Shown here piece by piece: positions 3,964 to 27,842 of a stretch of 64,000 nucleotides of DNA. Source of the stretch: Nitrospirota bacterium (GTDB lineage Bacteria > Nitrospirota > Thermodesulfovibrionia > UBA6902); NCBI GenBank assembly GCA_016214845.1, contig JACRMS010000016.1:84488-148487 (forward strand), given 5' to 3'. Each line of letters starts with the position of its first letter. Within the stretch, counting starts at the first letter, position 1. Both the position numbers and the translations under genes were made by a program. Below the pieces are notes generated by a model. The model ran no database searches, was not told where the DNA came from, and saw only the letters and a list, made by a program, of their open reading frames with translations.

Positions 3964-6126
3964 TTGAATTCATCGATATTCGATACGCTTAAAAACGTTT
4001 TCGGTTTTCAGACATTCCGTCCGAACCAGGAATCCATTATCAAGAACATCCTTGGCGGCAAAGACGTATTTGCGGTAATGCCGACCGGCGGCGGGAAATC
4101 ATTGTGCTACCAGTTGCCCGCGAGGCTTATGCCCGGCACCGTGGTCGTCATCAGCCCGCTCATCTCTCTGATGAAAGACCAGGTGGATGCAGCGGTTGAG
4201 AACGGAATATCCGCTGCGTTCATGAACAGCTCGATGAATGCCGAAGAGGTCTCCGACGTTTATCGTAAATTACAATCCGGCAAGCTCAATCTGCTTTATA
4301 TCGCTCCTGAGAGATTTGCCATGCCGCACTTCCTTGATAAGCTGAAGGCCTCTCCGGTCTCACTCTTTGCGATTGACGAGGCGCACTGCATATCCGAATG
4401 GGGGCATGATTTCCGTCCTGACTATCTCGGCCTTTCTCGCATTCCTGAGATGTTCCCTGCTGTGCCGGTTGCGGCCTTTACCGCGACAGCTACCGAGAAG
4501 GTGCAATCCGATATTATCAGGAAGATCGGCCTCAGAAACCCGCATACCGTGCGCGCGTCTTTTAACCGCCCGAACCTCTTCTATGAGGTTAAGACGAAAT
4601 CAGGAGTGGATGAGCAGATACTCGAATTTCTCATGGAACATCCAGGTGAATCAGGGATCATCTACCGCACGACCCGTGATTCCGTGATGGAGACCGCGGA
4701 CTTCCTTATATCAAAGGGCATCTCCGCACTGCCGTACCATGCCGGGTTGTCCGCCGAGGAACGGAGCAAAAACCAGGAGGCCTTCAACAGGGATGAGGTC
4801 CAGGTGATAACGGCGACCATTGCCTTCGGCATGGGCATTGATAAATCGAATGTGCGCTTTGTCCTTCACGCCGACCTACCGAAAAATATCGAAAGCTATT
4901 ATCAGGAGACCGGCCGGGCAGGCCGTGACGGAAGCTCAGCGCGCTGCCTCCTGTTCTTCAGCAGAGGGGACATACCGAAGATCAGATATTTCATCGACAG
5001 GATAACGGATGATAATGAGCGCTCCATCGCCATGGGGAAGCTCAACCAGATGGCGGGATACGCGTCGCATAATGTATGCAGGAGGAAACAGCTCCTCGGA
5101 TTCTTCGGGGAGGACTACACCTCCGGCAATTGCGCGGCCTGCGATATCTGCTCCGGGAACGTTGAACAGATCGACATCACTATCGAGGCACAGAAGATAA
5201 TGTCGGCAGTGTCACGGACAGGGCAGAGGTTCGGGGCGGGGCATATTGTGGACATTGTAACAGGCGCGGACACCAAGCGTATCCGGGAGCTTAAACATAA
5301 CGAGATAAAGACCTACGGCGTCGGCAAAGACAGGGACAAGAGATACTGGCGTACCATTGTTGATGAGCTTATTGCGCAGGAGGCGCTTATGCAGGAAGGC
5401 GATCCATATCCTGTGCTGAATATTACGAAAAAGGGTTCAGACATACTGTTCGGCAGGGAAAAGATCACGGCCTTGATAAAGGAAGAGGTGAAGACGAAGG
5501 CACTTGCAGAAAAGGGCGGGGAATATGACCGGACGCTTTTTGAAAGACTCCGCAGTGTCAGAAAAAGGCTGGCGGATATTCAGCAGGTCCCTCCCTATAT
5601 CATTTTCTCTGACAAAACCTTACAGGACATGTGCAGGCGTTTCCCGTCAACCCTGCCAGAGCTTAAAAAGATCAGCGGCGTAGGCGATACGAAACTCGAA
5701 CGGTATGGGGAGGATTTTGTCGCTGAGATAAAACGGTATCTTAATGAAAACCCCGGTATATCTATACCAGCGGATGTTCCCGTGTATACACACAGTGCTG
5801 CGTCTTCGCAAAAAAAGAAAAAGAGTCAGACTGTCGAAGATACCTATGAGCTTTCCAGTAAAGGGATGTCTCTTGAAGACATCGCGAAACAGCGCAATCT
5901 CTCGCCTGCAACCATAGCGTCCCATATGGAACGTCTGATCATGGAGGGACGCGAGGTTGATATCGACCGCCTCATTGATCCGGCAAAGCGTAAGTTGATA
6001 GAGGAATTCTTTTTATCCGGCCAACAGTGGGCGCTTAAGCCGGTAGTGGAGCAGTTCGCCGGCACAGTAAGCTACGAAGAAGCCCGCCTTGTAAGGGCGT
6101 GCCTGGTTCGTAAACGTCAGGTTTAA
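3964..6126 (+). CDS. recQ: ATP-dependent DNA helicase RecQ
   Basis: A 720-residue RecQ helicase. Helicase motifs in order: the Q-like FRPNQESII, Walker A MPTGGGKS near residue 40, DEAHCISEWGHDFRP near residue 139, TATA, and motif VI QETGRAGRDG. A zinc module (CRRKQLLGFFGE...CAACDIC) follows, then a winged-helix RQC, an HRDC-like segment (residues ~515-590) and a C-terminal helix-turn-helix (LSSKGMSLEDIAKQRNLSP). It unwinds DNA in recombination repair. The start is a TTG at 3964, with no in-frame ATG nearby and a weak G-rich upstream site. Confidence 0.95.
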   Translation: MNSSIFDTLKNVFGFQTFRPNQESIIKNILGGKDVFAVMPTGGGKSLCYQLPARLMPGTVVVISPLISLMKDQVDAAVENGISAAFMNSSMNAEEVSDVYRKLQSGKLNLLYIAPERFAMPHFLDKLKASPVSLFAIDEAHCISEWGHDFRPDYLGLSRIPEMFPAVPVAAFTATATEKVQSDIIRKIGLRNPHTVRASFNRPNLFYEVKTKSGVDEQILEFLMEHPGESGIIYRTTRDSVMETADFLISKGISALPYHAGLSAEERSKNQEAFNRDEVQVITATIAFGMGIDKSNVRFVLHADLPKNIESYYQETGRAGRDGSSARCLLFFSRGDIPKIRYFIDRITDDNERSIAMGKLNQMAGYASHNVCRRKQLLGFFGEDYTSGNCAACDICSGNVEQIDITIEAQKIMSAVSRTGQRFGAGHIVDIVTGADTKRIRELKHNEIKTYGVGKDRDKRYWRTIVDELIAQEALMQEGDPYPVLNITKKGSDILFGREKITALIKEEVKTKALAEKGGEYDRTLFERLRSVRKRLADIQQVPPYIIFSDKTLQDMCRRFPSTLPELKKISGVGDTKLERYGEDFVAEIKRYLNENPGISIPADVPVYTHSAASSQKKKKSQTVEDTYELSSKGMSLEDIAKQRNLSPATIASHMERLIMEGREVDIDRLIDPAKRKLIEEFFLSGQQWALKPVVEQFAGTVSYEEARLVRACLVRKRQV

Positions 6127-17922: not shown

Positions 17923-18195
17923 TCAACTCCCGGATCTATTGATCTTGCCAAGCGCATCCCTTAGCTCATCTTCACAGTATGAATATACCAGATTTGCATT
18001 CAGCACAAACGGAATGTTCTGGATACGCTTCATATTTTCCATTTGATCATAGATGCTCTTGCCTTCGATCGTTACGATAATCTTCCCCTGAGCGTCGTAA
18101 AAGTGCACCTCGCAGAAGTCAATCGCATCAATTTCTGCTATTACTCTTTCAGTATGTACAGGAGCTGTCCTCACAACAATACTCGATACATTCAT
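17923..18195 (-). CDS. napD: Nitrate reductase chaperone NapD
   Basis: A 90-residue protein of the NapD family. It has a beta-alpha-beta ferredoxin-like fold pattern: MNVSSIVVRTAPVHTERVIAEI, then DFCEVHFYDAQGKIIVTIEG, then YDQMENMKRIQNIPFVLNANLVYSYCE. NapD binds the Tat signal peptide of NapA in the cytoplasm and holds export until the molybdenum cofactor is inserted. It is the last gene of the operon, separated from napB by 154 bp that contain a dispersed repeat. A GGGAG site precedes the ATG. Confidence 0.88.
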   Translation of the reverse strand: MNVSSIVVRTAPVHTERVIAEIDAIDFCEVHFYDAQGKIIVTIEGKSIYDQMENMKRIQNIPFVLNANLVYSYCEDELRDALGKINRSGS

Positions 18196-18349: not shown

Positions 18350-18898
18350 CTATTCCGCCTTAACGCCTTCATTCAGGGTGTCCAATAAATTGGACCTGTA
18401 TTTGCCTTTCTTGCTCCTGAACTCGCTCTTGAAAAGGTTCTTCACCGGGGGCGTTATAGTCGTCTGTATGGCATGACACTGCATGCAGTTGTAGCGTTTG
18501 CCGTCGAGATTGCCTGCGAGGTCTTTCCCCGTGTCAAGATCGAAAAAGTGTGATTGAGGTATCGCGGTTGCCCCCGTGGCTGACACGGCATCAGGCATAT
18601 GGCAGCCCATGCACATGTTGTCGGTCCGAGCTATCGGCAGCATTCCAGTTATGTCGTGTGAGATAAGAGGAGGGCTGTTCTCAAATGACCTCTCGAATTT
18701 CTTCCCTGTTCCCGGTTCTTTTGTAATAGGCGCTCCACGGGCCGGAAGCTCCTTGCTTTCATCATAAAGTGTCTCTTTCCTCAAGCCGAGCTCCTCCTCT
18801 GTAAATGCCTTCCCGGTCTGCGCATATACAAGGGCCGCCCATAATAAAACAATTGCGGTCAGGGCGACCGTCAGCACTATGTAGATTTTTCTTGACAT
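18350..18898 (-). CDS. napB: Periplasmic nitrate reductase cytochrome subunit NapB
   Basis: A 182-residue protein with a cleavable signal peptide (IYIVLTVALTAIVLLWAALVYA) and two CXXCH heme c motifs, CMGCH and CMQCH, near residues 102 and 145. The conserved NapB features are present: GA-PI near the first third, PP-I-H-I, and histidines upstream of the heme sites (SHDI, SHFFD) as axial ligands. NapB carries electrons to NapA in the periplasm. The start is fixed by a very strong GGAGGAGG site before ATG 18898; the open frame extends 35 codons further but lacks support. The gene follows napH by 23 bp. Confidence 0.92.
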   Translation of the reverse strand: MSRKIYIVLTVALTAIVLLWAALVYAQTGKAFTEEELGLRKETLYDESKELPARGAPITKEPGTGKKFERSFENSPPLISHDITGMLPIARTDNMCMGCHMPDAVSATGATAIPQSHFFDLDTGKDLAGNLDGKRYNCMQCHAIQTTITPPVKNLFKSEFRSKKGKYRSNLLDTLNEGVKAE

Positions 18899-18921
18899 GG
18901 ATACCTCCTCCTTCATTCTCA

Positions 18922-19719
18922 TTAATATTTTTTTGAATATATATTGCCGAACTGTACGGCATTGTCCTTGCAAACCTCTACGCACCTTCCGCAGTTTATG
19001 CATTCACCTGAAAGGACCGCGCCGCTCTGTTTGCCGACCATGTGCAGGACCTGGCGTTCAGGACAGATGTCCAGGCATTTCATACACAACGTGCATTTGT
19101 CTTTATCGTAGCAAATCCTCAAAAAACCGAACCTGCCTGTCAGGGCGTAAAAGCCGCCTAATGGGCAGACATGTCCGCAGAAGCCGTTCTTTACCGCAAA
19201 GAGATCAAACAGGAATACAATTAGCATAAAGCTCCATCCAAAGCCCATTCCGTAAATTATCCCCCTGTGCAGCGCGCCTATCGGGCTTACCCATTCAAAG
19301 GCGGCTACGCCGAGAACAGCGGAAAGTATCAGCGACAATCCGGTCATCCAATACCGCGTTTGTCTTTTGATCTCCCATGATTTCCATTGTTCGTCAAACT
19401 TAAACAGCCTTCTTAATTTATTAGCTAAGTCACTCAACATGTTTACGGGACAGACCCAGCCGCAAAAGAGCCTGCCGCCGGTTAAGGCATAGAAGAGAAA
19501 AATTATTACTGCCCCGATAATTGCATCTTTAGCAAGCGCGGCCCCGGCGAATGAATTCTGCAGGACCGCAAAAGGGTCAGACAGCGGAATTGCATTAAGC
19601 GCCCTGGCGGAACTCAGATCGCCTCTTAAGACCTTCCAGTCAAACGCATTGCCCGCAAAAAAGAGGAATAGTATTCCGACCTGCGAGAACCTTCGTGCTA
19701 TGAGATATTTATGTTTCAT
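18922..19719 (-). CDS. napH: Quinol dehydrogenase membrane subunit NapH
   Basis: A 265-residue inner-membrane protein with four predicted helices and the NapH cysteine motifs CGWVCPVNML and CGHVCPLGG in membrane-proximal loops. It ends with two ferredoxin-type [4Fe-4S] motifs, CTLCMKCLDICPE and CINCGRCVEVCKD. With NapG it oxidises menaquinol and passes electrons to NapB/NapA. There is no napC in this cluster, so NapGH is the likely sole quinol route, as in epsilonproteobacterial nap operons. Length and layout match the family. Confidence 0.92.
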   Translation of the reverse strand: MKHKYLIARRFSQVGILFLFFAGNAFDWKVLRGDLSSARALNAIPLSDPFAVLQNSFAGAALAKDAIIGAVIIFLFYALTGGRLFCGWVCPVNMLSDLANKLRRLFKFDEQWKSWEIKRQTRYWMTGLSLILSAVLGVAAFEWVSPIGALHRGIIYGMGFGWSFMLIVFLFDLFAVKNGFCGHVCPLGGFYALTGRFGFLRICYDKDKCTLCMKCLDICPERQVLHMVGKQSGAVLSGECINCGRCVEVCKDNAVQFGNIYSKKY

Positions 19720-19779: not shown

Positions 19780-20565
19780 TCAAAACTCCTCATTCAGATA
19801 ATCCTCCGGCTTTTTACTGCTCCGTGGGGTCTGCGTTGTAACGTCCTCAGTAACATCTTTCAAACGCTCTTCATCGCGTTTGTCCCAGCCTTTCGAGTAT
19901 CTCAAACTTGACTCTCCCATTGCTATCTCTCGCGGAAGGACGAAGATAGACGCCTTTTGAGTGACACATGCCTTTTCACAAAGCCCGCACCCCGTGCATG
20001 CGCTGCTGTGAACAACAGGGGCCAGTATTGCATGTTTTCCTGTCCTCTCATTTCTTGTGTAATCAACTGTAATGGCTTTATCAATGAGGGGACACGTCCG
20101 GTAGCAGGCGTCGCACTGGATCCCGAAATAGGCGATACATGTTTCCCTGTCAATTACCGCAAGCCCCATCTTTGCCAGATTAATATTCAGTCTCATTTCT
20201 CCGCCTTCGTCCTTTTCACTGACAAGGGATTTATCAAGCGCGCCTGTAGGACAGGCCGGTATGCACGGGATGTCCTTGCACATGCGGCATGGAGCTGTCC
20301 TTGGGGTGAAGTAAGGAGTTCCAATCGGCTTATGGTCTCCCGGTTTGGCGAGCGCAAGAGCATCATAGGGACATGCCTCAACGCACATGCCGCATTTTAT
20401 GCAGGAGGCGAGAAACTCTTTTTCGCGCAGCGCTCCGGGCGGCCTCAATATTAAAGGAGCTGATTTGCCTTCTTCAATAAACCCGGCCCACCCAAGTCCT
20501 CCAGCGGTTGCAAGGCCGAGGCTTTTGATACTGTTAAGTAGAAATTTTCTTCTTTCAGGCATCAT
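19780..20565 (-). CDS. napG: Periplasmic ferredoxin-type protein NapG
   Basis: A 261-residue protein with a Tat signal peptide (ERRKFLLNSIKSLGLATAGG) and four [4Fe-4S] sites in the mature part. The cysteine motifs are CIKCGMCVEACP, CRMCKDIPCIPACP, a C-D-A-C-Y-RTCP group and CTGCGLCEKACV. NapG sits on the periplasmic face and transfers electrons from NapH to the NapAB complex. The twin MM at the start makes 20562 and 20565 equally possible. A 29-bp palindrome separates it from napA. Confidence 0.92.
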   Translation of the reverse strand: MMPERRKFLLNSIKSLGLATAGGLGWAGFIEEGKSAPLILRPPGALREKEFLASCIKCGMCVEACPYDALALAKPGDHKPIGTPYFTPRTAPCRMCKDIPCIPACPTGALDKSLVSEKDEGGEMRLNINLAKMGLAVIDRETCIAYFGIQCDACYRTCPLIDKAITVDYTRNERTGKHAILAPVVHSSACTGCGLCEKACVTQKASIFVLPREIAMGESSLRYSKGWDKRDEERLKDVTEDVTTQTPRSSKKPEDYLNEEF

Positions 20566-20619: not shown

Positions 20620-23391
20620 TCATGCCTTGTAGATTTTCACCGCGCATTTTTTATAATCCGTCTCTTTGGAGATTGGGCAGGTAGCGTCGAGCGTTACCTT
20701 GTTTATCAGGACGTGCTCATCAAACCACGGGACAAAGATCAAACCCGTCGGCGGGTTATTGCGTCCCCTTGTATCAACGTGCGCCTTGACCTTTCCCCTC
20801 CTTGATTCTATCCAGATGAGGTCGCCGTCTTTGACTTCATATGACTTAGCGTCTTTCGGGTTCATGAAACAGACCGCCTCAGGCACTGCGCGGTATAATT
20901 CAGGCACGCGCATTGTCATTGTCCCGCTGTGCCAGTGTTCAAGCACTCTTCCGGTAGAAAGCCACAACGGATATTCGTTATTCGGTATCTCGGCGGGTTC
21001 AATGTAGTGTCTCAGGAATATCTTCGCCTTGTTTGGAAGCTTGACCTTCTCAGTGCCCTTTGGACCCATGAGGTCACCGGACGGAAGTTCCTTGAACGCC
21101 TTTCCGTAGAAGGCGAATTGCCCGCGGTTCTCCGCTTTGGCGTACGGGTCATACTCCGCGTTGAATCTCCAGAGCGTCTCTTTACCGTCAACCACAGGCC
21201 ATCTCAATCCCCGCACATTGAGATATGTGTCAAAGTCCGCGAGGTCATGCCCGTGCCCGAGGCCGAATTTCCTGTATTCCTCCCAGAGATATTTCTGGAG
21301 GAAGAAGCCGTAACCTTTAAAGCCCTCGACCTTTCTCTTGTCGCCTGCGGCTTCCGAATTCAGAAACCCTTTGCCCACAGGGTCAGGCCATTTAAATGTC
21401 TTCGCGTCACTGTTTGCAAACAGCACATCAAAGAGTGTGTCGGTCTCTTTATATCCCATGGCCTTTGCCTTTTCCATAACATTCGGGATGGTGACCTCAG
21501 GTGAGATTTTAAACTCCTTCCACACTTCAGCCAATGTGAACATCTTTGAGAACTCAACCATCTGCCACGTGTCGGACATCGCATGGCCGACAGGCGTGAC
21601 CTGTTGACGCCAGTGTTGTGTTCTTCTTTCGGCATTGCCGTACGCGCCCCATTTCTCAAATATCATCGCGCTCGGCAAGATCAGGTCCGCTACCTTCGCG
21701 GAGATCCCCGGATACGCCTCCGACACAACGATGAAGTTGTCCATCTCCCTTGCCGCGGTTATCCAGTGATTTACATTGGCGGTGTTCTGCCACGGGTTGT
21801 TTACCTGGACCCATACCCACTTTATCTTTCCGTCTTCAAGATCTCTCATGATCTTTACATAGTGCGAACCCGGCACGGGATTCAAAGTGCCCTCGGGCAG
21901 CTTCCATATTTTTTCCGTGACCTCCCGGTGCTTTGGATTTGCGACAACCATGTCCGCGGGAAGCCTGTGTGAAAAGGTGCCGACCTCTCTCGCGGTGCCG
22001 CAGGCGCTGGGCTGTCCTGTCAGGCTGAACGCGCCGTTGCCCGGCATGGACTGTTTGCCAAGAAGCAGATGCACCGTGTAAGCCTGTTCGTTGACCCAGG
22101 TGCCGCGCACGTGCTGGTTAAATCCCATGGTCCAGAAACTGACGACCTTTCTGTCCTTAGCAGCGTAAAGGTCTACGAGCGTAACGAGTTTCTTTTTGAA
22201 CTCCTCAAGAGGCTCATCAGCGTCTCCCTTTGCAAGCTCCGCCACAAAATCCAGCGTGTACGGCTCAAGCCCCTTTTTGAAATCATCAAAGCTTATCAGC
22301 CAGTGATTGTCCGGCGTCTTGGCGTTCTTCATTTCCATCTTCTGCCCCTCCTGGATGCCGAGGGAGCTCATGGCCTGCGCCTCTTCTTTCGTGATTATTT
22401 TGAACGCCTCCATGCCCGCGGTATCAAGCTCGCCGGGTTTGTATTTAGCATGAGTTACTTGGGGGCGCAGTCCGTACCCGATGTCTACGGGGCCGGTTGC
22501 GAACACGCAGTTGTTGTCAACGAAATTCCGGTCAATCGCGTCAGGACGGTTATAAACGATCTCACGCGTAATGTAATTTAGTATTGCAAGATCAGTGTTG
22601 GGTTTAATTATGATCTCCACGTCCGAGATGCTGGAGCACCTGTTTGCGAAGGTAGAAATATTTACGATCTTTACCCAATCGGGTTTGCTCAGTTTTCTAT
22701 CGGTCACTTTTGACCAGAGCACAGGGTGCATCTCAGCCATGTTCGCGCCCCATAGAATGATTGAATCCGCATAATGCATATCGTCATAATTCCCGGCCGG
22801 CTCATCAATGCCGAAGGTCTGCATGAATGCCGCGACAGCGCTCGCCATGCAGTGTCTCGCGTTCGGGTCAATATTGTTGCTCCTGAATCCACCCTTCATT
22901 AATTTAACAGCAGCGATCCCCTCCATGATCGTATACTGTCCCGAACCGAAGACCGCTACTCCGGTGGGACCGAGCTCGGTGTAAGATTTTTTGAATTGCT
23001 TTGACATTTCCTCAAAGGCCCTTTTCCATGTGACCGGTTTGAATTTCCCCTTCTTGTCGAACTCGCCTTTTTCATTTACTCTCAAAAGGGGTTCGGTAAG
23101 ACGGTCCGCGCCGTACATGATCTTTGCGTTGAAATAACCCTTGATGCAGTTAAGCCCCATGTTTACAGGCGCGGCAGGGTCTCCCTTGACTGCGACGATC
23201 ATGTCGTTCTTTGTCGCGACCATGATGCCGCACCCCGTACCGCAGAACCTGCATACGGCCTTGTCCCATTTCCATCCTGCCTGCGTCTCTTTCGCAGCAG
23301 CTAATAATTCATCCGGCACGGCCATTCCGATGGCCGTTGCAGCGCTTACCGCCGCAGTGGTCTTTAGAAAATCTCTCCTTGACACCAACAT
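20620..23391 (-). CDS. napA: Periplasmic nitrate reductase catalytic subunit NapA
   Basis: A 923-residue molybdenum enzyme. It has a Tat signal ([19 protein letters not shown]) and an N-terminal [4Fe-4S] site with C47, C50, C54 and C82 (CRFCGTGC ... LNCIKGY). The Mo-coordinating cysteine is C181 in the diagnostic NapA block [12 protein letters not shown]. The remaining domains bind bis-MGD; a C-terminal beta-barrel closes the protein. It reduces nitrate to nitrite in the periplasm. At 923 residues it is longer than the ~830-residue proteobacterial form and close in size to the ~924-residue epsilonproteobacterial NapA. A strong GGAGG site precedes ATG 23391. Confidence 0.96.
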
Positions 23392-23511: not shown

Positions 23512-24972
23512 CTACTTGTAGCGTTCCTGAAATTCCTTGACGCGTTTCGCGCGGTCGGCTTTGGCAGCCGGGTCCTCTTTGCCGATAGCCCAGTTATGAT
23601 TCGGGGTATTCATAACTTCAGTAAGCATCGCCTCAAGCTCACCCGCGAACTTCTGCGCGTTTGCATCTTTGCTGGTCTTGCCCATTTCTATGACTTCCTT
23701 TAATTCAGGAACATATGAGCCGTACCAGTTCCTTGCAAGGTCGTAATTGCCGTGCCACTGCGTGTAGTCCGGAGCCATCATCGAAGCTGCATGACGCACA
23801 CGGCGGCCTTCATGATGCCAGAGCTCAAACCAGGTGTAGTCGATCTTCTGGGCGAATGCCGCATACTCACTGCCCTTGACAGCCTTCAGCACGTCAGTTG
23901 CCTTCTTGAAAAGCTTCTCGCCGGGCTTGGCCCATTTGTCGCTGTAAAGGTCAAGCTGGGCCTCGTATTGGATATAGAACGCCTTGACGAAGTTTACGTT
24001 ATGGCATGACGCGCACACTTTTTCCATGTTCGCCTTGCGCATATCACCCGTGATAGCGGCTGAGGGAAGATTCCACGCCTTGTCGGTTTCATGGGCCTGC
24101 TTTAACTGCGGCGGACGGTTGTTCCATTTAATGCGCAGCCCGACGTTGTGTGTGACCGGCATGTCACTGGTTGCCGACATATGGCAGGTTGCGCATGTAG
24201 GGGCCGCGGAATAATCCTCGCCCGAGATCCATTTGGCGGATTCGAGGTTCATCCTCTCCTTGTTAGCGTAATAATTGATGCCGTGCTTTGATTCCTGGTA
24301 GATTTCTATCTGCGGATGGTCGGGGCCCATGTGGCATCTGCCGCAGTTTTCAGGCTGGCGCGCCTGCGCCACTGAAAATTCATGACGCTGGTGGCATGCC
24401 GTGCAGCTGCCCTCAGAGCCGTCAGGATTTACACGTCCCATGCCTGTGTTGGGCCACACAGCCGGGTCCGGCTTTCCGTTCTTGTTGATCTTTACAACAG
24501 AGCCGTGGCACTGCCAGCAGCCGTTTACAGCCGCCGCTGAAATGCCTTCAGGAAACGCCTCTGTCTTCATGCCCCGGTTGCCTTCAGCGACTTCGGCAAG
24601 CGTGTTGTCCAGGGAACCCATGATACGGCCTGCCTTTGAGTGATGCGAATTCTCAAATTCGTCCACTTCCCTTTCATGGCATTTGGAGCAGTCCTTTGGC
24701 GACACGATAACTGAAATCAATTTACCTTCATGCTCGAAGGCATCCACGTCTCCTTTTTGCGCCTCATGGCATTCAAAGCAACCCACATTGGCGCGATAAT
24801 GTTTGCTCCTGCCCCACTCCTGATAAATATTGACCGTGGTCTGGGTGTGGCAGGTTACACATTCCTGGCTGGCTTTAGAGAGTTCTTTTGGTATATTGAT
24901 CCTTGTCTCGGCGAATACGCTTGTTGTCCAGATGAGCATGATACCTATTAATAACTTAACTATTTTTGACAT
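23512..24972 (-). CDS. Octaheme cytochrome c, hydroxylamine oxidoreductase-like
   Basis: A 486-residue periplasmic protein with a signal peptide (residues 1-21) and eight CXXCH sites starting at C38, C65, C95, C152, C190, C210, C260 and C320. The eight-heme pattern and the C-terminal helical segment RVRHAASMMAPDYTQWHG (391-408) match the HAO family. No C-terminal membrane helix is present, so it should be soluble. HAO-family enzymes oxidise hydroxylamine or hydrazine, or run in reverse to reduce nitrite to hydroxylamine (epsilon-type Hao). Placement first in a nap operon favours the reductive role; Y403 should be tested as the heme-crosslinking tyrosine. A GGGAGGG site precedes the ATG. Confidence 0.85.
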   Translation of the reverse strand: MSKIVKLLIGIMLIWTTSVFAETRINIPKELSKASQECVTCHTQTTVNIYQEWGRSKHYRANVGCFECHEAQKGDVDAFEHEGKLISVIVSPKDCSKCHEREVDEFENSHHSKAGRIMGSLDNTLAEVAEGNRGMKTEAFPEGISAAAVNGCWQCHGSVVKINKNGKPDPAVWPNTGMGRVNPDGSEGSCTACHQRHEFSVAQARQPENCGRCHMGPDHPQIEIYQESKHGINYYANKERMNLESAKWISGEDYSAAPTCATCHMSATSDMPVTHNVGLRIKWNNRPPQLKQAHETDKAWNLPSAAITGDMRKANMEKVCASCHNVNFVKAFYIQYEAQLDLYSDKWAKPGEKLFKKATDVLKAVKGSEYAAFAQKIDYTWFELWHHEGRRVRHAASMMAPDYTQWHGNYDLARNWYGSYVPELKEVIEMGKTSKDANAQKFAGELEAMLTEVMNTPNHNWAIGKEDPAAKADRAKRVKEFQERYK

Positions 24973-25085
24973 CTTACCCTCCCAAGTATTTGTCCGCCCC
25001 TGAATCTGAAAAATTCAGGCGCAATGTTTGTAAGTTAATTGAATTAATAAACTAAGACTTGATCACCCCCTTTTTTCAGTTCCGG

Positions 25086-25120
25086 GACAAGAGGGCACTC
25101 AACCTGTTCCTCCTCTTGTC
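25086..25120 (-). promoter_or_regulatory. Leader hairpin candidate of the hao-nap operon
   Basis: A perfect 9-bp inverted repeat (GACAAGAGG and CCTCTTGTC) with a 17-base loop. If the promoter just upstream is right, this hairpin lies at or just after the transcription start. No T tract follows, so it is not a plain terminator. It could bind protein as DNA or stabilise the 5-prime end of the RNA. Confidence 0.4.
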
Positions 25121-25122
25121 TT

Positions 25123-25152
25123 CCATTAGCACAATGAATCCGTCGAGTCAAT
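25123..25152 (-). promoter_or_regulatory. Candidate promoter of the hao-nap operon
   Basis: Read on the minus strand, TTGACT (25152-25147) is separated by 17 bp from TAATGG (25128-25123), preceded by TG as in extended -10 promoters. The -35 is strong and the -10 weak, which fits an activated promoter. Predicted start near 25116, about 143 bases before the ATG. Confidence 0.35.
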
Positions 25153-25185
25153 ATTTATAACAGTTGCTTATTCCGCAATTTGTAT

Positions 25186-25200
25186 TTGCATCAATTGCAA
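25186..25200. promoter_or_regulatory. TTGCA-N5-TGCAA inverted repeat
   Basis: A perfect 5-bp inverted repeat with a 5-bp spacer, lying about 35 bp upstream of the candidate -35 box. It is a possible binding site for a dimeric regulator. The identity of that regulator is unknown. Confidence 0.35.
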
Positions 25201-25265
25201 TTTCAAATGGCCGTGCGGCGTCTTTAAATTTGCTGACTATCTGATTAAAGGTTAACAGGTAGTTT

Positions 25266-25303
25266 TGTAAATGTGATGTAAAAGTGTGTAAAGGATCTGT
25301 AAA
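25266..25303. promoter_or_regulatory. Four phased TGTAAA direct repeats
   Basis: TGTAAA occurs at 25266, 25277, 25287 and 25298, spacings 11, 10 and 11 bp, so all copies face the same side of the helix. OmpR/PhoB-family regulators bind such tandem half-sites as head-to-tail dimers. The gene ending 28 bp away encodes exactly this type of regulator. Two head-to-tail dimers would fit on the array. Confidence 0.6.
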
Positions 25304-25330: not shown

Positions 25331-26014
25331 TTATTCTTTAAACATATAGCCCGCGCCGGACACAGTGAGGATGTATTTTGGATTTGAAGGGTCTTTCTCG
25401 ATCTTTTGCCTGAGATGCTGGATATGCACGTCTATCACCCTGCTCCATGAATAAATCTGGGAGCCTTTCCAGGCGGATTTCCTGATCGTGTCCCTGCTTA
25501 ATGCCTCCCCCCGGTGGTTTATAAAAAAACAAAGCAGCTCAAATTCCTTTGGAGTAAGGTCAATCTTCTTCCCTGAGACAGTGACAAGGTGTTTTTTGAA
25601 ATCGACCTTGATGCTGCCGATGCTAATTTCTTCTTTTGTGACCTGAGGGCCCGCCCGCCTGAGGCAGGCCTTTATTCTTGCCAGAAGCTCAAGAGTCTCA
25701 AAGGGCTTTACCACGTAATCATCAGCTCCGCTTTCAAGGCCGATGACCTTGTCAGAGACCTTGTCCCTCGCGGTAAGCATTATGACCGGAATTTGTGGAA
25801 AATCTTTTCTCAAACCCCGGCAGATCTCAATGCCGTCTCCATCGGGCAGGGTAAGGTCAAGAAGTATGAGGTCGGGGGGGTATTCAGATATCAGGGACTG
25901 CGCCTTTGCCCAGTTGTCTGCCGTATCAACCTCATATTCATTGAGCTGAAGATTTGCCTTGAGCACCTTTAATATGTCTTTGTCGTCGTCAACAGCAAGG
26001 ATTCTGTGGTGCAT
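25331..26014 (-). CDS. OmpR/PhoB-family response regulator
   Basis: A 227-residue two-domain regulator. Receiver: VDDDKDI near the start, phosphoacceptor D53 in LILLDLTLPDGDG, MLTARD with the conserved threonine, and KPFE with the conserved lysine. Output: a C-terminal winged helix (LTPKEFELLCFFINHRGEALSRDTI ... SRVIDVHIQHLRQKIE). It is encoded just after its likely partner kinase and just before the hao-nap operon, on the same strand. The phased TGTAAA repeats next to its 3-prime end are its best candidate target. It would be a DNA-binding activator or repressor in the cytoplasm. Confidence 0.93.
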   Translation of the reverse strand: MHHRILAVDDDKDILKVLKANLQLNEYEVDTADNWAKAQSLISEYPPDLILLDLTLPDGDGIEICRGLRKDFPQIPVIMLTARDKVSDKVIGLESGADDYVVKPFETLELLARIKACLRRAGPQVTKEEISIGSIKVDFKKHLVTVSGKKIDLTPKEFELLCFFINHRGEALSRDTIRKSAWKGSQIYSWSRVIDVHIQHLRQKIEKDPSNPKYILTVSGAGYMFKE

Positions 26015-26038: not shown

Positions 26039-26194
26039 TAGCCACGAATTTTCACGAATTGACTCGAATAAAATCAGGAACAGATTTCGCTGATACGCAG
26101 ATAAGTTTATTTTCTTTCATCTTGATAATCTGCGTTTTCGCGTCCGGTTTTATTTCTTGTTTCTTTCGTGATTATTCGTGCATATTCGTGGCTA
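26039..26194. repeat. TTAGCCACGAATTTTCACGAATT inverted-arm repeat (family L)
   Basis: The left arm (TAGCCACGAATTTTCACGAA, from 26040) and the right arm (TTATTCGTGCATATTCGTGG, ending near 26191) are opposed across about 110 bp. The right arm overlaps the last 7 codons of the kinase gene, so the repeat supplies the C-terminal residues VATNMHE and the stop codon. Confidence 0.7.
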
Positions 26195-27842
26195 CCTTCC
26201 TTCTCTTAGGCAATGTGAAATAAAACGTGCTGCCCTTCACATCTTCACCGCTTATCACGTTAATTTCACCGTGATGCGCCTCGATTATACCTTTGCATAT
26301 CGCAAGTCCGAGGCCGGTGCCCTGTTTTCTGCCTATTGTATAAAATTTGTCAAAGATTTTTTTCTGGACCTCAGCCGGGATGCCGGGGCCTTCGTCTTTT
26401 ATCGAGACTGTAACGTTATCTTTATCCTCTGTAAATGAGACAGTTATCTCCGAGTCATCAGGGCTGTAGTTAATCGCGTTTGAGAGGAGATTTATCAAGA
26501 CCTGTCTTATCCTGTCTTCATCGGCATGAATAAATATACCTGCGGCAGCCGTTATCCTGAACGTGATATTTCTTTCAATTGCTGTGGCGTGGAAACCAGT
26601 GACCACCTCTTTAATAAGAGATGGCAAGTCAACCTCTCTGAACTCCAGATCAAAGATCCCTGACTCAATACGCTCGATATCCAGAGTGTCATTAACCATC
26701 CGTATCAATCTGTCGGAGTTGTTTTTTATCACATCAAAAAATTCCTGAAGGTCATCTGCGCTTTTGCCGGTTTTGGGGAGCATTGAAAACCTTGCCGTTA
26801 TATAATCCATCGCACCTTTAATGGAGGTCAACGGGGTCCTGAGCTCGTGTGATACCTTTGCGATAAAATCGGATTTTCTCTCATTCAATTCAGTAAGCCG
26901 CGCGTTCGCGTCCGCAAGGCTTTTCGTTGCGCTCTGCACCTTGTTTTCAAGGTCGGTATGATATTCCCCCAGAGATTTTGACATCGCAACAAAGGCCGTG
27001 GTGAGGTCCTCAAGCTCATCGCCGGTCCTCGTCACAGGGACCCCGGTCCCCCTGCCTTTTGAGAGGTCCCTCATGGACAGCTTCAACTGGTTTACGGGGC
27101 GCAGCACAAGCTCCTTCATCATAATAAACAGGACCAGCATCAGGGTCGCAATAGTGGCTGCGCTTGATAAAATGATAGTCCTTTTTTCAGAGTCTATCAT
27201 TGAGAGGGCGTAATCCATGGGAATAGACACGCTGATAGCCCCCCTTATGTCTCCGACTTTATAGCCTTGATGCTCATGACATTTAAGGCAGGGCTGCTCA
27301 ACATACAGCGGCGCTATGTAGCGGTAAAAATGTGACGGCCCTATTTTCTCCACGGTTGAAGATTCCTTTGTCCGGTTTGATTCAAACGCCATCAACGCGG
27401 TCCTCTCGAACTCATCAGGCGCGTTCTTAGGATTTATCAGTTTCAGGCTCGTTATATTGAACCAGTAGGCCCCTGACTTTTTGGCGTATTCCGACAGTTC
27501 CTTGGTCACCATGGCAGGGCTTTCTTTTATATATTTTTTGCCACTGATGGCCTCCATTTCCGGCTCGGAGAGATAGGGGTTCGGTTTTTTCCAGGGCATT
27601 TTCTCTACAAAAATGCCGCCGTGGTCTGCGATCCATCTCCGGGTAAGCACGATTTGCGCAAACAAAGTCTTTGCCTGCGTATCAAGCTGTTCAATGACGA
27701 GTTTCCTGTCCTTCTCCAGGATCAGGTAGGTTGACAAGCTCATGGCTATGGTCAGTACGACAGCCGTGCCTATAACGAATTTAAGGCTGAGGCTGATCTT
27801 TAACGCCCTGAACTCTCTTAAGAATGTCCTTATTTTTCGCAT
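26172..27842 (-). CDS. Sensor histidine kinase with periplasmic c-heme (DUF3365/Tll0287-like) domain
   Basis: A 556-residue membrane kinase. TM1 is at ~21-42 and TM2 at ~222-246. The ~180-residue periplasmic part carries one CXXCH site (C185, C188, H189, in QPCLKCHEHQGYKVGDIRGA), the pattern of DUF3365/Tll0287-like heme domains. A HAMP-like linker and coiled coil follow. The kinase core has the H box SHELRTP (H332), N box NLLSNAINYS, and G boxes DEGPGIP and GTGLGLA. A covalent heme would let it sense redox state or a small ligand such as NO. It is first in line with the regulator and hao-nap operon. Its last 7 residues come from a dispersed repeat. Confidence 0.9.
   Translation of the reverse strand: MRKIRTFLREFRALKISLSLKFVIGTAVVLTIAMSLSTYLILEKDRKLVIEQLDTQAKTLFAQIVLTRRWIADHGGIFVEKMPWKKPNPYLSEPEMEAISGKKYIKESPAMVTKELSEYAKKSGAYWFNITSLKLINPKNAPDEFERTALMAFESNRTKESSTVEKIGPSHFYRYIAPLYVEQPCLKCHEHQGYKVGDIRGAISVSIPMDYALSMIDSEKRTIILSSAATIATLMLVLFIMMKELVLRPVNQLKLSMRDLSKGRGTGVPVTRTGDELEDLTTAFVAMSKSLGEYHTDLENKVQSATKSLADANARLTELNERKSDFIAKVSHELRTPLTSIKGAMDYITARFSMLPKTGKSADDLQEFFDVIKNNSDRLIRMVNDTLDIERIESGIFDLEFREVDLPSLIKEVVTGFHATAIERNITFRITAAAGIFIHADEDRIRQVLINLLSNAINYSPDDSEITVSFTEDKDNVTVSIKDEGPGIPAEVQKKIFDKFYTIGRKQGTGLGLAICKGIIEAHHGEINVISGEDVKGSTFYFTLPKRRKVATNMHE

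Follow-up and report, generated by a model that had tools for sequence, protein, structure and literature searches.

In PhoB class II promoters, the pho box replaces the −35 element and lies approximately 11 bp before the −10 element. The repeat structure of the pho box has been described (PMC4415409), and boxes have also been defined for other regulators of the OmpR family, i.e., TGTWAH-N5-TGTWAH for WalR/VicR (YycF; PMC4168254) and the HLR1 element (G/T)TTACA(T/A)(T/A)NN(G/T)TTACA(T/A)(T/A) for cyanobacterial RpaB (PMC11633204). Two-component control of nap and nitrite ammonification genes is known for NarX/NarL and NarQ/NarP (PMC12285233). On the sensor side, a 2026 preprint describes the Tll0287/DUF3365 domain as a c-heme Cache domain; tight NO binding was shown there for a signal-fused sCache_heme representative from P. 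azotoformans, which does not form a stable complex with oxygen (PMC12889525).

Here, we describe an array of four direct repeats in a Nitrospirota bacterium, located between a two-component system and a hao-napAGHBD operon. By analogy, it would be an operator of a known OmpR-family kind, combining a PhoB class II-like promoter with WalR-like half-sites. Like the PhoB/pho box system of E. coli, the locus has direct repeats of about 11 bp in tandem and a winged-helix response regulator, but the half-site is TTTACA/TTAACA instead of CTGTCAT, the spacing is 11-10-11, and the targets belong to nitrate reduction rather than phosphate metabolism. The WalR box is found exactly in both halves of the array (plus strand, 25287-25303 for repeats 1-2 and 25266-25282 for repeats 3-4); unlike at WalR sites, however, two boxes stand in tandem with a fixed 10-bp step and a fixed promoter offset, and no cell-wall genes are involved. 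The TTACA core as direct repeats is common to HLR1, which has two units in 10-bp steps, whereas four units at 11-10-11 are present here. The regulator stays below the equivalog cut-offs for PhoB (TIGR02154, 219 vs. 296.2 bits), WalR (NF040534, 213 vs. 340 bits) and RpaB (NF045944, 205 vs. 330 bits). NarL and NarP control comparable genes but are regulators with a LuxR-type HTH, in contrast to the OmpR-type regulator, direct repeats and heme-Cache kinase of this locus. In a non-exhaustive search of the open-access literature, no description of the array or of the nitrate-ammonification regulon was found; the literature search also returned no papers on MtrA half-sites.

Gene setting and structure of the repeat array

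The window, i.e., the whole 64-kb stretch of DNA analysed, carries on its minus strand, in this order, a histidine kinase gene, a PhoB/OmpR-type regulator gene, the array, octaheme hao, napA, napG, napH, napB and napD. The kinase (26172-27842, minus strand like all following genes) consists of a periplasmic Tll0287/DUF3365 c-heme Cache domain with the heme motif CLKCH, HAMP, HisKA and HATPase. The regulator (25331-26014) has a receiver domain (PF00072, 6e-29) and a Trans_reg_C winged helix (PF00486, 1e-24), the domain composition of the OmpR/PhoB type. The first gene after the array encodes an octaheme cytochrome of the HAO family with eight CxxCH motifs (23512-24972). It is followed by napA for the periplasmic nitrate reductase (20620-23391), which scores above curated cut-offs, napG (19780-20565), napH (18922-19719), napB (18350-19003), the true start of which is probably downstream of the first listed ATG, and a regular napD (17923-18195) at the operon end. 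Besides these genes, a 42-nt imperfect inverted repeat resembling REP/MITE elements was noticed between the regulator and kinase genes (26039-26194), and similar pieces are present at 15 other places of the genome.

A recount confirmed the four copies of TGTAAA given in the earlier note, which start at 25266, 25277, 25287 and 25298 on the plus strand (spacings 11, 10 and 11 bp). Read on the minus strand, which encodes the regulator and hao, the array is TTTACA-N5-TTTACA-N4-TTTACA-N5-TTTACA. Repeat 1 (25298-25303) is the farthest from hao, repeat 2 (25287-25292) follows after 11 bp, repeat 3 (25277-25282) after 10 bp and repeat 4 (25266-25271) after 11 bp. The array is located immediately past the stop of the regulator gene (gene end 25331) and 293 bp upstream of the ATG of hao (24972), in agreement with the distance of about 300 bp estimated before. 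TGTAAA occurs 44 times in the window. According to a simple count, approximately 1e-8 four-repeat arrays are expected by chance per 64 kb. When the window was shuffled 300 times with a first-order Markov model, 0.013 pairs per window and zero triples were obtained. An exact TGTAAA triple occurs only once in the assembly of 3,445,234 bases, in which no further four-repeat match was found at ≤3 mismatches, either with or without a −10 element.

Conservation of the array and its target genes

The order histidine kinase, response regulator, hao is present in 11 related loci of Thermodesulfovibrionia. Absence of the array from relatives with this gene order had been set beforehand as an observation that would speak against an operator; the array was found between the regulator gene and hao in 11/11. 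Its usual form in relatives is TTTACA-N5-TTTACA-N4-TTAACA-N5-TTTACA, and the third repeat is TTAACA in 91% of 68 arrays compared. In 47 hao loci, 24 sites reach a score of at least 22 of 24, while no Markov shuffle exceeded 18. The helical-phase arrangement of direct repeats of about 11 bp in the window recurs elsewhere, as the spacing 11-10-11 accounts for 63 sites and every other of 342 spacings for ≤13.

Variation around the array was seen in several relatives. In L033 (hao 91% identical), the array is kept with no regulator gene beside it, and the regulator ortholog is encoded on another contig (G007). In five loci (L035, L037, L048, L054, L067), a small NapD-like ORF is found behind the first array, and about 210–245 bp before hao there is a second one; an additional array faces a divergent napA in L035, L043, L044 and L054. 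hao loci without the array, e.g., in Nitrospinota, Calditrichota and cable bacteria, are also without this regulator nearby. L079 contains an extra receiver-domain ORF (4093-4794) between the regulator gene and the hao array.

In other genomes, napA operons, a gene for an NrfA-type (Cytochrom_C552) multiheme cytochrome and NapD-like genes are found after arrays. The array is thus retained while the downstream gene varies between hao, an NrfA/octaheme-type cytochrome gene, napA and a NapD-like gene. Since the target varies and the operator remains constant, the conservation is not mere linkage to the hao sequence.

Further genes were observed behind arrays. A short cupredoxin-like lipoprotein is encoded there in two genomes (L177, L181). 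In L178, L182 and L190, arrays with an extended −10 are followed by genes for small secreted proteins in which CDPCDYNIDYG motifs are repeated; none of these proteins has a confident Pfam match, and they are possible members of the regulon. Finally, L205 and L206 (G015, G036) show a full-score array without an extended −10 before a cluster of glutamate-synthase-like, Rieske and cytochrome b genes, with the inverted repeat GTGACTTTTGTCAC nearby; these arrays may be due to chance or may be the site of another regulator.

Promoter geometry and leader

In an alignment of 68 distinct arrays, which are phylogenetically related and not independent, an extended −10 (TG-N-TANNNT) starts 8 bp past the last repeat. 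Among these related arrays, TGNTANNNT is found at one fixed offset (46) in 31 of 68 and at any other offset at most once, the first two hexamer positions are TA in 64 of 68, and an A occupies the expected +1 in 52 of 68. The corresponding putative element in the window is TG-T-TAACCT (TGTTAACCT; 25249-25257, minus strand), with TG at 25257-25256 and the hexamer TAACCT, a weak −10, at 25254-25249. Repeat 4 occupies the −35 position, and a gap of 11 bp separates it from the −10 hexamer; therefore, the array appears to replace the −35 element, at the fixed −10 distance of a PhoB class II promoter. Generic sigma-70 matches in the region did not exceed those in shuffled sequences. Transcription is predicted to start at an A following a C (25242, minus strand), which would give a leader of 270 nt (24973-25242).

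An alignment with L034 offers an explanation for the length of the leader. In L034 (hao 88% identical), the same sequence flanks a NapD-like ORF, which is missing in the window, where its flanks are joined. Consequently, the distance between array and hao would be an untranslated remainder after gene loss. Searching with the protein of one relative, no NapD-like ORF was found elsewhere in the genome. Of the two explanations proposed earlier for this distance, the long leader is in line with the predicted +1 at 25242, whereas a second, closer promoter is not borne out, as a second array before hao is absent from the window and occurs only in relatives.

Neither a known riboswitch nor any other Rfam family was detected in the window or the leader at gathering score. 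A special leader structure was considered and rejected, as the fold is little better than that of shuffled sequences (z −1.38). Besides the ordinary Shine-Dalgarno sequence, an extended Shine-Dalgarno-like element (GGGGGTGAT, GGGGAGGTGAT or GAGGAGGTGAT; about 25060-25070 in the window, minus strand) is conserved at a distance of 80–105 nt before hao in L033–L037, L043, L048 and L079. No consistent ORF was found behind it; it may be a standby site or belong to a leader peptide.

Proposed activation or repression by the neighbouring regulator

Judging from the sequence comparison, the array is very probably an activator operator of hao-napAGHBD, which is read by the neighbouring regulator in a class II-like manner and driven by the kinase. 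The kinase with its periplasmic c-heme Cache-family domain would supply the signal, probably NO or some other redox-active compound formed when nitrite is reduced. The phosphorylated regulator (25331-26014) would occupy all four TTTACA half-sites from the same side of the helix and thereby replace a −35 element, most likely as a pair of dimers in tandem, one per WalR-type N5 box, or otherwise as four tandem subunits. In its bound state, it would touch the polymerase at the −35 region and recruit it to the extended −10 (25257-25249), so that transcription of hao-nap would begin near 25242.

Alternatively, a regulator sitting over the −35 region could block the polymerase, making the array a repressor site. 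The array does overlap the −35 position, and RpaB, which has a similar half-site, can repress (PMC11633204). However, a repressor site would allow more variable placement, whereas the strictly fixed offset to the extended −10 and the lack of a separate conserved −35 fit an activator replacing this element. We regard repression as unlikely.

Activation by the neighbouring regulator further presumes that it is the protein which recognizes the array. In 150 genomes, the array (≤2 mismatches) and the regulator ortholog were found together in 41, the array alone in 6, the ortholog alone in 11 and neither in 92 (p = 3e-20, Fisher test ignoring shared ancestry). With the same uncorrected test, the association also held when near relatives (p = 3e-8) and far relatives (p = 3e-10) were taken on their own. 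As a control, another OmpR-type regulator, a paralog found in 130 of the 150 genomes, showed no association (together with arrays in 43, array alone in 4, paralog alone in 87, neither in 16; p = 0.31), and the pattern read backwards gave 24 matches versus 114 for the array pattern at ≤3 mismatches. Four of the 11 genomes with the regulator and no array at ≤2 mismatches have none at ≤3 mismatches either. The recognition helix, SRVIDVHIQHLR, is near-invariant among orthologs down to 56% identity. Taken together, the conserved position, spacing, orientation and promoter geometry, the co-occurrence and the near-invariant helix strongly support the proposal of the earlier note that the array is the operator of the adjoining OmpR/PhoB-type regulator.

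Since several OmpR-family regulators use such half-sites, a real operator could nevertheless be bound by a different member of the family, e.g., a WalR-, RpaB- or PhoB-like paralog. Both the WalR/VicR box TGTWAH-N5-TGTWAH and the RpaB half-site (G/T)TTACA match the array, the genome encodes four or more further OmpR-type regulators of full length, and in four genomes with arrays (G017, G020, G042, G134) no ortholog of the regulator or kinase was detected; in G005, the kinase is truncated by the contig end. On the other hand, the array recurs beside the neighbouring regulator in many genomes, and the one control paralog lacks the association that the neighbour shows, which leaves little probability for another ligand. 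The weakest reading, that the repeats are neutral or part of the regulator gene end rather than of hao, could appeal to short A+T-rich words arising easily and to the position directly past the stop codon, but it is as good as refuted already because the array is conserved across genera and families, far beyond its chance expectation, and stands before hao in L033 and L055 and before napA elsewhere with no regulator gene adjoining.

Kinase sensor domain and candidate signal

With its Tll0287-like domain (PF11845, 4.8e-23) fused to a signalling module, the kinase, taken here as the partner of the regulator in activation, belongs to the sCache_heme sensor kinases. CxxCH is retained in every kinase ortholog read. 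The kinase thus shares the domain and the heme motif with sCache_heme proteins, among which NO binding has been shown for the P. azotoformans relative only (PMC12889525). The preprint tested proteins of pseudomonads, and neither a response regulator nor an operon nor a link to nitrate is named in its text (PMC12889525). By analogy, an NO cue would suit a nitrite-reduction regulon; nitrite, redox state and nitrate are also candidates.

A wider reading may be offered tentatively, although we consider it somewhat less probable than its opposite: the c-heme Cache kinase would sense NO and, via the OmpR-type regulator and the four-repeat operators, switch on nitrate ammonification across Thermodesulfovibrionia, i.e., nap together with nitrite reductases of the hao type or the NrfA/octaheme type. 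If this is true, the regulon would be cued by NO and not by nitrate, and with the arrays a set of target promoters would be known for the first time for a two-component system of the sCache_heme family.

Implications

From the array and its offset to the −10-like motif, a precise model of operator and promoter is obtained for the conversion of nitrate to ammonium in a nitrogen-cycle group with few cultured members. With the motif, members of the regulon can be predicted, among them small secreted proteins without an assigned function. Moreover, a family of heme-Cache kinases, for which NO binding was reported only in 2026, would thereby be tied to defined target promoters.
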